Shown in pieces: positions 2,981 to 10,508 of a DNA stretch of 10,879 bases (the first letter of the stretch is position 1; each line of letters opens with the position of its first letter). This stretch comes from Candidatus Nealsonbacteria bacterium CG01_land_8_20_14_3_00_12 (GTDB lineage: Bacteria; Patescibacteriota; Minisyncoccia; Minisyncoccales; PETJ01), in assembly GCA_002781125.1 (NCBI GenBank), contig PETJ01000033.1, positions 1 through 10,879 on the forward strand, read 5' to 3'. A program made the translations under genes and the position numbers. The notes under the pieces were generated by a model. It searched no databases, had not been told where the DNA came from, and was given only the letters and a program-made list of their open reading frames with translations.

Positions 2981-3430
2981 TTATCTCGGTAATACTTCTA
3001 TTTTTTGTCCCTCTTTAATTCTCACAATTGCTTTTTTATATCCTTTCCTCCAACCCCTAATCTTTCCTAACCTTCTTTTTTTTGGCGGTAAATTTATAAT
3101 TTTAACACCCAAGACATCTACTCCGTAAAGGTTCTCAATTGCCTTTTCAATTTCCACTTTATTTGCTCGAGAATAAACCTTAAAAACATACTGATTCTTT
3201 TTAACTAAATCAGTTGCTTTCTCGGTAACCTGGGGAGTTTTTAAAATTTTGTAAGCTTCCCCAATAACTGTCTTTCTTTCTCTTTTGGGAACCGTCACTA
3301 TTTCTGGGGCCCGCCTTTGGCGGGAGGGTGGTGGGAGGGTTGGAGTCCTAATTTCTTTTTGTTTTTCAATCGGCCTTTCAATTTTTTCTTCGGGAGGTTT
3401 CTTTTTTTTAAAAATATCTCGTAAAGCCAT
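2981..3430 (-). CDS. rplW: 50S ribosomal protein L23 with long N-terminal extension
   Basis: This is a 149-residue protein; L23 is normally about 95-100. L23 surrounds the tunnel exit and is the docking site for trigger factor and SRP. The core starts near residue 59: EAYKILKTPQVTEKATDL (58-75), NQYVFKVYSRANKVEIEKAIENLYGVDV (79-106) and the basic loop PPKKRRLGKIRGWRKGYKKAIV. Residues 1-57 are additional, low in complexity and rich in Lys, Pro, Glu and Arg. Within them, TLPPPSRQRRAP (31-42) is encoded by a GC-rich palindrome and a G-run array unlike the AT-rich surroundings, so it may derive from a repeat insertion. The chosen ATG is one base after the rplD stop (TAG-T-ATG); internal starts nearer the core are not evident, which supports a true extension. 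Confidence 0.95.
   Translation of the reverse strand: MALRDIFKKKKPPEEKIERPIEKQKEIRTPTLPPPSRQRRAPEIVTVPKRERKTVIGEAYKILKTPQVTEKATDLVKKNQYVFKVYSRANKVEIEKAIENLYGVDVLGVKIINLPPKKRRLGKIRGWRKGYKKAIVRIKEGQKIEVLPR
3310..3339. repeat. GC-rich hairpin fused to G-quadruplex motif inside rplW
   Basis: A perfect palindrome cccgcc-ttt-ggcggg spans 3310-3324. It runs into four G-triplets on the plus (template) strand at 3322-3324, 3326-3328, 3333-3335 and 3337-3339, with loops of 1, 4 and 1 bases. This fits the canonical intramolecular G-quadruplex pattern. It encodes the Pro/Arg-rich part of the L23 extension. Confidence 0.65.
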
Positions 3431-5238: not shown

Positions 5239-6438
5239 TCATTTAGCGATTTTGGTAACCACTCCTGCTCCTACTGTTTTTCCTCCCTCTCTGATAGCAA
5301 ATCTCTGTTTTTCTTCCATGGCAATTGGGACTATCATTTTTATTTTTAAATTAACTGTATCCCCCGGCATCACCATCTCTGTTCCCTCTGGCAAAGTTAC
5401 TTCTCCGGTAACATCAGTGGTTCGAAAATAAAACTGGGGTTTGTAACCAACAAAAAAAGGAGTGTGTCTTCCACCTTCTTCTTTGGTTAAAACATAAACT
5501 TCGCCTTCGAAATCAGTGTGGGGAGTAATAGTTCCTGGTTTTGCCAAAACTTGACCTCTTTCCACCTCTTCCTTTTTTATACCCCGCAGTAAAATGCCAA
5601 CATTATCTCCTGCTCTTCCTTCGTCTAAAGTTTTATTAAACATTTCAATACTGACAGCTATAGTCTTAATTGTTGGCCGAATGCCAACTAATTCAACTTC
5701 CTCATTAGGATGAATCACTCCCCTTTCAATTCTTCCAGTGGGAACTGTTCCCCGGCCAGCAATCGAAAAGACGTCTTCGATAGCCATCAAAAATGGTTTT
5801 TCTATTTCCCTAACTGGCTCGGGAATATATTCATCAATCGCCTTTACCAAATCCAAAATTGGTCGAGCCTCTGTCTCATCCGGGGACTTCGCTTCCAAGG
5901 CTTTCAAAGCTGAGCCTCGAATTACCGGGATTTCATCTCCAGGAAAATTATATTTTTTCAAAAGCTCCCTTACTTCGCTTTCAACCAAATTGATAATTTC
6001 CGGGTCATCAACGGCATCGCATTTATTTAGAAAGACGACAATTGCCGGTAAGCCAACTTGCCTGGCTAAAAGAATGTGTTCTCGAGTTTGGGGCATTGGG
6101 CCATCAACAGCCGAAACGACTAAAATAGCTCCATCCATCTGAGCAGTCCCGGTAATCATATTTTTAATGTAGTCGGCATGGCCTGGACAATCAATGTGGG
6201 CATAGTGACGCTTCTCTGTTTCATATTCCACATGAGAAATGGTGATTGTTAATCCTCTCGCCTTTTCTTCAGGAGCAGCATTAAGATCCTCGACTGTGAC
6301 CTCTTTTGTGGCCAACCCCTTTAATTTTAAAATACGGGTTATAGCGGCAGTGACCGTACTTTTACCATGGGCGACATGGCCAATGGTACCAATATTAACA
6401 TGGGGCTTTGCCCTGACAAATTTTGCTTTTTCTGCCAT
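5239..6438 (-). CDS. tuf: Elongation factor Tu
   Basis: This is a 399-residue EF-Tu (E. coli 394), the GTPase that delivers aminoacyl-tRNA to the ribosome. The G domain has the P-loop GHVAHGKS (20-27), switch [14 protein letters not shown] (60-72) with the magnesium-binding Thr64, DCPGH (83-87) with catalytic His87, NKCD (138-141) and SALK (176-179). Domains 2 and 3 follow, with [13 protein letters not shown] and EGGRHTPFF. The P-loop is odd: the near-universal Asp (Asp21 in E. coli, GHVDHGKT) is Ala23 here, read from GCC. I chose the ATG at 6436-6438 because [21 protein letters not shown] is the family start; 11 upstream in-frame residues come from leader repeats. The gene has its own probable promoter and a repeat-built leader. 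Confidence 0.98.
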
Positions 6439-6446
6439 ATTTGTGT

Positions 6447-6546
6447 CGCGAAACAGACGCGAAACTCCCACCGAGTGGGAACCCTACGCGAAACAGAAGC
6501 GAAAGTTTAGCGTCAGTTTTGCGTATGGTTTAGCGTCAGTTTAGCG
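6447..6546. repeat. Phased GCG repeat array and hairpin in the tuf leader
   Basis: The triplet gcg starts at 6448, 6459, 6488, 6499, 6510, 6521, 6533 and 6544 on the plus strand, mostly 11 bases apart (one step of 12, and one of 29 across a hairpin). A 20-base direct repeat (6447-6466 and 6487-6506, 18 of 20 identical) flanks the hairpin tcccac-cga-gtggga (6466-6480). A second perfect 15-base repeat, gtttagcgtcagttt, is at 6505-6519 and 6528-6542. The array covers most of the predicted 5' untranslated region of tuf. Confidence 0.7.
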
Positions 6547-6567
6547 ATATTTATTAATTATATTATT

Positions 6568-6595
6568 ATTTTATTAACTTCAATAAATTTGTCAA
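6568..6595 (-). promoter_or_regulatory. Sigma70-type promoter for tuf
   Basis: The minus strand reads TTGACA (6590-6595, perfect), 16 bases, then TAAAAT (6568-6573, 5 of 6). The predicted start near 6561 gives a leader of about 120 bases that contains the 11-bp phased repeats. A perfect TATAAT also occurs at 6557-6562 but its upstream partner is weaker. The promoter starts about 10 bases after the fusA stop, so tuf can be expressed above the level of fusA. Confidence 0.6.
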
Positions 6596-6604
6596 TGTGA
6601 ATAA

Positions 6605-8689
6605 TTATCTTCTCTTGCCTTCAATTATTTCCTGAGCTATATTCTGGGGCATTTCCTCATAATGATCAAATTCCATTGTAAAGGTTCCCCGGCCCTGTGT
6701 CAAGGAACGCAAAGTGGTAGCATAGCCAAACATTTCGGCTAAGGGAACTTTTGCCCTAATTATTTTTACCTGAAATCTATCTTGGGTTTCTTCAATTTTT
6801 CCTCTCTTCGCTCCCAGGTCTCCAATTACACTTCCAAAAAACTCTTGAGGAGAAATCACTTCCAATTTCATTATTGGCTCTAACAAAACGAGTTTTGCTC
6901 TTCTGGCTGCGCTTTGAAGAGCGGCCGAGCCTGCAATTTTAAATGCGAATTCAGAAGAGTCAACTTCATGAAAAGAACCATCGTAAAGAGTAACCCTTAA
7001 ATCAACTAATGGATATCCAGCCAAAACTCCTTTTTCCATTGCCTCCTTGACTCCTTTTTCAACTGCCGGAATGAATTCCTGGGGAATTACTCCTCCTTTA
7101 ATTTCATCTACAAATTCAAATCCCTCCCCACTCTTTTTGGGTTCAACCTTTAGCCAGACATGGCCATACTGTCCCCTACCTCCTGATTGCCTAATATATT
7201 TTCCTTCAGCTTCGGCCAGTTCTTTAATCGTCTCTTTATAAGCCACTTGAGGTCTGCCAACATCTCCTTCGACCTTAAATTCTCTTTTCATTCTATCAGT
7301 AATAATTTCCAAATGAAGTTCACCCATTCCTGAGATAATGGTCTCGCCAGTCTCTTGATCGGTTTTCATTTTAAAAGTTGGGTCTTCCTCAGATAATCTT
7401 TTTAAGGCCAGACTCATTTTTTCCTGGTCAGCTTTTGTCTTTGGTTCAATTCGGATGGAAATCACTGGTTCTGGGAAAGTAATTTTTTCTAAGATAATCG
7501 GGTTATTACTATCGGAGAGGGTGTGGCCGGTTGAGGTGTTTTTTAATCCAACCGTGGCCAAAATATCTCCGGCAAATGCCTCCTCCGTTTCTTCCCTTTC
7601 GGCGGCATGCATTCTTAATAATCTACCAATTCTTTCTTTTTCCCCGGTTATCGGATTTAATAAATAAGAGCCTCTTTTTAAATATCCTGAATAAACTCGG
7701 AAAAAAGTCAAAGTCCCAACATAAGGATCGGCCTGAATTTTGAAAGCTAAAGCTGAAAAGGGTTCAGAATCCAGGGGTTTTCTTTCAATAACTTCGCCAG
7801 TTTTGGGATCAGTTCCTTTTATTGGCGGCAAATCAACCGGGCTTGGCAAATAATAGATTATCGCATCCAAAAGGGGCTGAATTCCTATTCTTTTAAAGAG
7901 GGAGCCAAAAAAGACCGGAAAAATCTTGCATTTTATCACCGCCTTCCTTAACCCCTTTCTTAGTTCAGTAATCGAAATTTCTTTTTTAGACAAATATTTT
8001 TCCAAAAGTTCTTCATCCTCAGCGGCAACTTTTTCAATTATTTTTTTTCTCCATTCTTTTGCCTTTTCCTCCAATTCTTTTGGAATTTCCTCTTCCTTGA
8101 CAATTTCTCCTTCTTTCCCTTCAAACCTTAAGGCCTTCATCTTTAATAGATCAACCAATCCGGAAAAATTATCTTCCTCGCCAATTGGTAACTGCAATGG
8201 AATAGCATTCATCGCCAATCTTTTCCAAATCGATTCCAAATTCATCTCAAAAGTTGCCCCAACCTTGTCCATTTTATTCACAAAACAAATTCTTGGAACG
8301 CCAAAATTATCAGCTTGATGCCAAACAGTCTCCGATTGAGTCTGAACACCGGCTCCGCCATCAAAGACAACAATTGCTCCATCCAAAACCCTCAAAGACC
8401 TCTGAACTTCAGCCGTAAAATCAATGTGTCCAGGAGTGTCGATAATATTTATTTGATAATTCTCCCCATCAAGGGACCAATAGCAAGAAGTGGCAGCAGC
8501 CATGATTGTCATCGCCCTTTCCCTCTCCAAAGCCATCCAATCTAAAATTGTCGTCCCTTTTTCCAAAGTTCCAATTTTGTAGGTTTTGCCGGTGTAATAC
8601 AAAATACAAACAGTGGTGGTAGTCTTACCAGCTGAAATATGAGCGATAATACCTATGTTTCTGTATTTTTCGATTGGATATTTCCGCAT
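6605..8689 (-). CDS. fusA: Elongation factor G
   Basis: This is a 694-residue EF-G (E. coli 704), the GTPase for translocation and, with RRF, ribosome recycling. The G domain has AHISAGKT (16-23), switch I RERAMTI (56-62), DTPGH (84-88) with catalytic His88, and NKMD (138-141). Domain II follows [16 protein letters not shown], domain III has [10 protein letters not shown], domain IV has [14 protein letters not shown] and [18 protein letters not shown], and domain V ends with [18 protein letters not shown]. Two conserved positions differ: the P-loop Asp (AHIDAGKT) is Ser19, and the switch-I RGIT is RAMT. All other motifs look functional, and no second copy is in the window. The ATG at 8687-8689 is preceded directly by a heptamer repeat, with no Shine-Dalgarno. 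The gene follows rpsG after a 205-base gap. Confidence 0.97.
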
Positions 8690-9844: not shown

Positions 9845-10471
9845 TCAAAATAGTGGAGTACCAACGATTAAGGTGAAAATCCAGTTGATAATCAGGGTCA
9901 GCCAATGGAAGAAAAAGAAAATAATAAAAAGCAAAATGAATAAACCAAATTGGCTTAGAATTATTTTTAGGTTTTGCATAGAATAAGGCAAGAAGGTAAA
10001 AAGAATGTGAGAGCCATCAAGGGGAGGAATGGGCAGTAGATTAAAGACAGCCAAAAGTATATTTATATAAACAATGTAACTAAACATCAAAGAGAGGCCG
10101 GGAAGAATGTCTAAGATAGGAAAAAATCGCAAGGCTAATCCAAAGACTAAAGCTAGGGCTAAATTTGATCCCGGGCCAGCTAAAGCTACTTTGGCTGAAC
10201 CATATTTTTGATCTCTGAAATTATAAGGATTTATCGGTACCGGCCTTGCCCAACCAAAAATAATTCCTCCTCCCGTTAATTTTGCCATGATGACTAAAAA
10301 AAGAGGCAAAATAATTGAACCAATTGGATCTAAGTGCTTAATTGGATTTAAAGTGAGCCTGCCAGCATATTTTGCTGTAGGGTCTCCTAAATAATTTGCC
10401 ATTGCTCCATGGGAAACTTCGTGAATAACAATAGAAAAAATTAAAATAATAATTAAAAATAGATATTCCAT
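9845..10471 (-). CDS. Site-2 protease family membrane metalloprotease (peptidase M50)
   Basis: This is a 208-residue, very hydrophobic protein with five to six predicted membrane segments. The zinc motif HEVSH (17-21) lies in the first segment, AGPGSNLALAL (98-108) is the conserved central motif, and NLLPIPPLDG (144-153) supplies the third zinc ligand (Asp152). This fits the compact site-2 proteases that cut substrates within the membrane; the lack of a PDZ or CBS domain places it in the minimal group, substrate unknown. I chose the ATG at 10469-10471; an in-frame TTG 21 bases upstream lies within the promoter. It precedes rpsL with no room for a separate terminator, so read-through into the str genes is possible. 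Its mRNA is predicted to be almost leaderless. Confidence 0.92.
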   Translation of the reverse strand: MEYLFLIIILIFSIVIHEVSHGAMANYLGDPTAKYAGRLTLNPIKHLDPIGSIILPLFLVIMAKLTGGGIIFGWARPVPINPYNFRDQKYGSAKVALAGPGSNLALALVFGLALRFFPILDILPGLSLMFSYIVYINILLAVFNLLPIPPLDGSHILFTFLPYSMQNLKIILSQFGLFILLFIIFFFFHWLTLIINWIFTLIVGTPLF

Positions 10472-10480
10472 AATTTCTTT

Positions 10481-10508
10481 ATCATAACACAATCAGAAAT
10501 CTTGTAAA
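10481..10508 (-). promoter_or_regulatory. Promoter for the site-2 protease gene (near-leaderless)
   Basis: The minus strand reads TTTACA (10503-10508), 16 bases, then TATGAT (10481-10486) with an upstream TG-T extended -10. The -10 box ends 9 bases before the ATG, so transcription should start about 3 bases before the start codon. Its -35 box overlaps that of the divergent promoter. Confidence 0.5.

Follow-up and report, generated by a model that had tools for sequence, protein, structure and literature searches.

The question raised by this locus is how two elongation GTPases encoded side by side, EF-Tu (tuf) and EF-G (fusA), can do without the P-loop aspartate, which in EF-Tu (Asp21) has been described as universally conserved and as crucial to GTP hydrolysis by the ribosome-bound factor (PMC5311926). 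Both genes lie in a window of 10,879 bp, which is the whole of contig C14 in a 440,920-bp metagenome-assembled genome (MAG) from the Patescibacteria (G000; 71 contigs, 79.67% complete). A sequence-only reading of this DNA had reported Ala23 in the EF-Tu motif GHVAHGKS and Ser19 in the EF-G motif AHISAGKT, and we found both residues on the minus strand where they had been placed (Table 1). On balance, we are inclined to think that these are ordinary EF-Tu and EF-G proteins with a rewired and compensated GTP site that is probably cation-free, and that the variant versions have spread as a complete gene or as the N-terminal part of one.

Variant GTP sites within the EF-Tu and EF-G families

The Ala23 protein is a variant inside the EF-Tu family. 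In the alignment to solved EF-Tu chains its residue 23 falls on E. coli Asp21, and although it departs from GHVDHGK at this position, it is recognized by the EF-Tu family model TIGR00485 and by the models of the three domains (PF00009, PF03144 and PF03143). Its identification as an archaeal eIF2 gamma was rejected, with a score against TIGR03680 of only 103.2 bits versus a cut-off of 514.5. Likewise, the window EF-G lacks both the Asp of AHIDAGK and the Gly of RGIT (Ser19 and Ala59) and is still recognized by TIGR00484 and by the models covering domains I-V (PF00009, EF-G_D2, EFG_III, EFG_IV and EFG_C); the EF-G2 model NF009377 gave 539.7 bits, short of its cut-off (890), and the EF-G II paralogue was rejected as an alternative. 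The catalytic His (PGH) and the NKxD motif are kept in 15 of the 15 extracted Ala EF-Tus and in all 10 Ser EF-Gs. The sequence-only reading had described all other catalytic motifs as intact, which is true of these two motifs but not of switch I, which is altered at Asn53 in EF-Tu and at Ala59 and Met63 in EF-G. The losses are indeed real and unusual, and not the decay of broken genes. Both proteins are full-length members of their families, and relatives that were assembled separately carry these residues as well. A single EF-Tu and a single EF-G were located in G000 (a genome about 80% complete), so that both must work unless the incomplete assembly conceals a second copy, and the best reading is that they are the ordinary housekeeping factors of this bacterium, which carries both variants. 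Relative to the three solved chains with alignments, the EF-Tu switch I (window 6280-6330) has one extra residue, a feature common to the other rows of the order.

In EF-Tu the P-loop change is coupled to one particular position of switch I. Comparison of the 15 Ala rows with 52 others revealed that columns 23 and 53 alone separate the two groups fully; residue 53 presumably corresponds to E. coli Asp50 and Thermus Asp51, a numbering that agrees with the alignment to the solved chains. Among 66 rows (the EF-Tu of G075, read in the wrong frame, was left out here and from the tree of residues 3-85), 15 have the pair Ala-Asn, 51 have Asp-Asp and none is mixed, and this pair of columns comes first among 21,945, with a normalised mutual information of 1.000 versus 0.600 for the runner-up (kinship uncorrected). 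The same pattern extends to the 120 nearest listed protein clusters, 14 of which are 99-100% identical to the window protein: the 118 that could be scored comprise 113 Ala-Asn, one Ser-Asn and four Asp-Asp, again with no mixed pair. On the other side of the divide, the named loci in which both EF-Tu motifs were matched (49 among the matches listed) are Asp-Asp.

In EF-G, residues 19 and 59 separate the Ser from the Asp rows fully and residue 63 does so nearly. The 66 Asp rows have Gly59 throughout, with Thr (64), Ser (1) or Val (1) at residue 63, while eight of the ten Ser rows read Ser-Asp-Ala-Met-Met at residues 19, 50, 59, 60 and 63; the EF-G of G154 is misaligned and unreadable at residues 19-63 owing to a masked stretch, and in these counts it is this row that supplied one of nine Ala59 as well as the Val63. 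The remaining pattern, Ser-Asn-Lys-Ile-Lys, is that of G101. We therefore speak of two types. Type I, that of the window, is represented by its 120 nearest listed clusters, all with Ser19, Asp50 and Met63 and with Ala (88), Glu (26) or Gly (6) at residue 59. Type II, found around G101, comprises 26 listed clusters with Ser19, Asn at the Asp50 position, Lys59 and Lys63, the other 94 clusters in the neighbour list of G101 being canonical (Asp-Asp-Gly-Thr). Type II repeats the Asp-to-Asn partner of EF-Tu, and its lysine replaces the RGIT glycine, a residue whose counterpart in eIF5B serves as a carbonyl ligand of the monovalent cation (PMC4509514). The codon of the serine is TCN in eight of the ten genomes; the two exceptions, with AGT, are G028 of type I and G101 of type II, so that within type I the serine has persisted through a switch of codon class. 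Genome G083 has two EF-G genes on different contigs (L202 and L203), both of the Asp type, which could reflect a mixture of strains.

Distribution of the variants

Among 30 genomes, namely that of the window and 29 relatives, all from families other than its own, EF-Tu Ala was found in five and EF-G Ser in three, the window counted; the EF-Tu of G012 was read from a neighbouring locus and the EF-G of G005 from a separate pattern search, and both have Asp. A search of 246 genomes of the order for non-Asp P-loops returned 51 rows, including 16 EF-Tus with GHVAHGK and 10 EF-Gs with AHISAGK. They belong to 20 genomes, of which six carry both changes, ten the EF-Tu change only and four the EF-G change only. 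The pattern was open to eight residues with C or G at the second codon position (Ala, Ser, Thr, Pro, Gly, Arg, Cys and Trp) in exact contexts, so that it misses Asn, Glu, Gln and Lys as well as genomes without an assembled gene; out of these eight, EF-Tu gave Ala alone and EF-G Ser alone. At the protein level, 15 of the 16 Ala EF-Tus and all ten Ser EF-Gs were confirmed, the EF-Tu of G046 being located at a contig end and known from the pattern alone. An EF-G pattern open to any residue matched 232 of the 246 genomes, with part of the matches listed.

Outside the order, the same pattern found no variant EF-Tu or EF-G in 569 distinct genomes of the phylum (372 from the phylum survey and 220 from the class survey, 23 of them common to both). 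The full surveys covered 379 genomes for the phylum, 7 of them in the order, and 237 for the class, 17 of them in the order, and their sole EF-Tu and EF-G matches were those of the window itself. The surveys of order, phylum and class also returned 31 look-alike rows of the form [A/G]H[V/I/M]x[A/H]GK, whose frames were read and none of which is EF-Tu or EF-G (G145, G516, G455, G487, G077, six from the class survey and twenty more); other rows, different at the fifth position, were excluded on translation alone. Named loci of several phyla, few of them from close relatives, served as an outside control: among the matches listed, 79 of 80 EF-Gs have Asp, one being unread, and so do 51 of 51 EF-Tus. 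As far as sampled, the natural variants are limited to one order. Relatives that carry a name in the database searches are 'Candidatus Nealsonbacteria', with one listed name 'Minisyncoccales bacterium'.

History of the variants and the locus

Within this order the variant versions are scattered across families, and the trees of the two factors suggest different modes of spread. On the tree of ribosomal proteins (11 proteins, 65 rows, 1801 columns, without ten genomes having few ribosomal proteins), Ser needs seven changes and Ala eight. On the tree of the EF-G G domain, with the trait columns removed, Ser needs two changes, nine rows forming a clade (support 95) and G101 standing separately, and on that of EF-G domains II-V it needs three. 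EF-G Ser therefore seems to have spread horizontally with the whole fusA gene. For EF-Tu, Ala needs two changes on the tree of residues 3-85 (81 columns after removal of the trait columns) and ten on the tree of residues 86-398, and it seems to have spread through recombination at the 5' end of tuf, involving approximately the first 80 codons. It must be noted that all trees are quick searches, that those of EF-Tu are weakly supported and that their well-supported branches force just one Ala change in either part. Moreover, the ribosomal-protein tree was built on neighbours of fusA and tuf that were possibly transferred along with them, although the family codes agree with its placement of G154.

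The clearest illustration of such a mosaic is provided by G154, which groups with G078 and G114 by its ribosomal proteins, by its family code and by EF-Tu residues 81-398, while its EF-G falls into the Ser clade. Residues 1-80 of its EF-Tu are 90% like those of the Ala-type G117 and G036, whereas residues 81-398 are 91% like those of its Asp-type kin G078. At the nucleotide level, the first 240 bases of its tuf are 74-80% identical to five Ala rows versus 64-71% to five kin, and the remainder is 73-77% identical to the former versus 75-80% to the latter. The tract is old: the third positions of the 5' part are 40-54% identical to the Ala rows. In G056, which is also Ala-Asn, the N-terminal part of EF-Tu is closest to that of G080, an Asp-type member of the same family, which suggests a separate origin of the pair in this genome. 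We would put the number of origins at two to four for the EF-Tu pair and at two for EF-G Ser, as an estimate rather than a computed figure.

The features of the two genes are collected in Table 1. The start of tuf is most likely the ATG at 6438 (MAEKAKF...), rather than the GTG at 6471. On the minus strand the order is a site-2-protease-like open reading frame (ORF), rpsL, rpsG, fusA, tuf, the S10-operon genes and rplP; genes other than fusA and tuf were assigned by eye from sequence, and served as references. The first of these ORFs (window 9845-10492), directly upstream of rpsL, encodes an M50/site-2 protease-like membrane protein, and an ORF of 93 aa lies at the contig end (10569-10850). 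The L22 and L23 genes (1355-1858 and 2981-3430), also named by eye, encode a long lysine-rich C-terminal tail and an N-terminal extension rich in proline, respectively. Elsewhere in the genome, locus L006:271-1197 (G000:C4:2570-3496) encodes a GTPase with a TypA-like start, AHVDHGKTTLVDGLLKQSG, which continues as release factor 3 sequence after DTPGH and runs off the contig; it may be either a true hybrid or a misjoin at the conserved motif.

Table 1. Features of tuf and fusA in the window (whole contig, 10,879 bp)
Feature	Position	Strand	Evidence
tuf, EF-Tu, 399 aa from ATG at 6438	5239..6438	-	ORF; TIGR00485, 677 bits vs cut-off 522
EF-Tu P-loop GHVAHGKS; Ala23 codon gcc at 6370-6372	6358..6381	-	E. 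coli Asp21 position
EF-Tu Asn53 (aat), switch I; Asp in Asp-type relatives	6280..6282	-	sequence; specificity scan; pair scan
fusA, EF-G, 694 aa	6605..8689	-	ORF; TIGR00484, 1051 bits vs cut-off 659
EF-G Ser19 (tca) in AHISAGKT; Thermus Asp22 position	8633..8635	-	sequence; alignment to Thermus EF-G
EF-G Asp50 (gat); retained in type I of the window, Asn in type II	8540..8542	-	sequence; row comparison
EF-G Ala59 (gcg) in RAMTI; replaces RGIT glycine	8513..8515	-	sequence; row-by-row reading
EF-G Met63 (atg); Thr in nearly all Asp-type EF-G	8501..8503	-	sequence; row comparison

A proposed compensated GTP site and its alternatives

In a search of the open-access literature, covering mostly titles and the beginnings of abstracts, no EF-Tu or canonical EF-G that naturally lacks the P-loop Asp was found to have been reported. 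Related GTPases with which the variants can be compared include the initiation factor eIF2 gamma, whose P-loop GHVAHGKS is identical to that of this EF-Tu and which is assisted by the GTPase-activating protein eIF5. With Ala at the P-loop Asp, it has Asn in place of the switch I Gly and no monovalent cation (PMC4342817), whereas the protein described here is an elongating EF-Tu, in which the switch I Gly is kept and the partner change is Asp53Asn. EF-G II (EF-G2) has Gly for the P-loop Asp and a switch I cation residue that is not conserved (PMC4342817), but it is a separate paralogue, while our Ser is found in the EF-G of the str operon. Ski7, in which the P-loop Asp is replaced by Asn, is a proposed pseudo-GTPase with a bound cation (PMC4509514). 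With canonical EF-Tu and EF-G the variants share the domains, the catalytic His, NKxD and the place in the operon, and they differ from them in the P-loop Asp and in the partner residues of switch I.

In eIF5B, the P-loop Asp and the carbonyl of the switch I Gly ligate a monovalent cation (PMC4509514; PMC4342817). We propose that the partner changes in switch I compensate for the loss of this Asp and would restore a workable site. Asp51 of Thermus EF-Tu interacts with the phosphates and Mg2+ (PMC4329189), and in our variant two carboxylates near Mg2+ and the phosphates would go together, offsetting the lost Asp21 and its K+: a lone Asp50 without both would leave the phosphates under-compensated, which the Asn may relieve. 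Such a site would work without a monovalent cation, with hydrolysis proceeding via the His and the sarcin-ricin loop. The Ser of type I EF-G may contact a phosphate or, weakly, a cation through its hydroxyl, and Met63 and residue 59 would repack switch I, while in type II Lys59 could stand in for K+, in keeping with the proposal that either a Lys/Arg finger or K+ activates P-loop NTPases (PMC6310460). In favour of compensation, the Asp-to-Asn partner arises in EF-Tu and, separately, in type II EF-G. Coping without the Asp looks more difficult than coping without K+, since Asp21 is called crucial on the ribosome, the effect of K+ on the intrinsic rate is small (PMC5311926) and the cation is cited as minor for catalysis. 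It is tempting to go further and to consider at least three separate escapes from the P-loop Asp and K+, namely Ala/Asn in EF-Tu, Ser with a repacked switch I in type I and Ser-Asn with a lysine ammonium replacing K+ in type II, all of them natural K+-independent factors that move as exchangeable modules; this extension is offered tentatively, as a possibility that we would not yet call probable.

Several observations weigh against a compensated and cation-free site. Ski7 still binds a cation despite its P-loop Asn, so that the loss of the cation in the variants is not certain, and its authors cite work that gives the cation little catalytic weight (PMC4509514). The loss of Gly59 is usual in type I EF-G but not obligatory, because 6 of the 120 nearest listed clusters keep it. 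Finally, the perfect coupling in EF-Tu may partly be hitchhiking and shared descent, since there may be as few as two origins, as on the weakly supported tree of residues 3-85. Taken further, the second changes would be lineage markers in the same recombined or inherited tract, without any functional coupling. Such an explanation is in agreement with the smaller number of changes on the N-terminal EF-Tu tree and on the EF-G G-domain tree (two each) than on the ribosomal-protein tree, and with the tract-like EF-Tu mosaic in G154. We nonetheless consider it unlikely: among the Ala rows the tract varies at most of its other positions but not at 23 and 53, G056 is Ala-Asn in spite of an N-terminal part closest to its Asp-type kin, and type II EF-G has the same Asp-to-Asn partner in a different protein.

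Alternatively, an outside agent, such as an antibiotic, a toxin or a modifying enzyme that recognizes the P-loop or switch I of the two factors, could select the variants, which would then sweep by recombination. The patchy occurrence within families, the signs of horizontal spread and the tendency of the two changes to co-occur are what such an agent would leave behind. However, no agent or resistance gene came into view, in the course of work that included no search aimed at them, and 14 of the 20 variant genomes have the EF-Tu or the EF-G change alone, which makes this scenario quite improbable.

The sequence-only reading had argued that two losses side by side are more than chance and point to a shared cause, such as a different ion environment or an altered ribosomal GTPase centre that would free translational GTPases generally from the P-loop Asp. 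The first part holds, as the six genomes with both changes compare with approximately 0.65 expected among 246 (Fisher p = 5e-6; p = 0.005 by family, for 47 families; kinship uncorrected in both). With kinship taken into account on the tree, an average of 2.1-2.4 independent pairs change in the same direction versus 0-0.5 against it, which agrees in direction but is not significant, the pairs being too few. The second part fared worse. Where the other GTPases of the variant genomes were read, the Asp lost from EF-Tu and EF-G is retained, in IF2 in 12 of 12 genomes and in LepA in 4 of 4 (both named from motifs with no family search, from 30 of 37 pattern matches). Wherever the sarcin-ricin 14-mer was found, namely in 10 of the 20 variant genomes and in 3 of 10 controls, its sequence is unchanged; the genome of the window itself gave no match, and its rRNA may be absent from the assembly or may differ. 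That a general change of ion use lies behind both losses is unlikely, though less firmly so for the cell of the window itself, because IF2 and LepA keep their Asp where read, the two changes are separable and the 14-mer is unchanged where found, and a shared environment that releases the whole class of GTPases has very little to recommend it. Compensation inside each protein is the likelier common theme, since each P-loop loss comes with its own changes in switch I. G154 encodes two different IF2-like genes (L249 and L261), both with Asp.

Assembly or sequencing error, to which a fragmented and incomplete MAG might be prone, is excluded for practical purposes, as one or both changes occur in 20 genomes and in more than 200 listed protein clusters from several sources, separately assembled relatives share the residues and the exact window EF-Tu (P0001) is present on 54 contigs of the protein collection.

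Compensation within each factor is thus the reading that we prefer, and with it both elongation GTPases have probably found a natural way around a catalytic residue that is otherwise near-invariant. The P-loop Asp may hold K+, orient the gamma-phosphate or act electrostatically, and natural EF-Tu and EF-G proteins that lack it and have fixed sets of partner residues are ready-made double substitutions for probing its role. With respect to the evolution of the family, the history of tuf in this order suggests that recombination can replace even the part of EF-Tu that binds the nucleotide.

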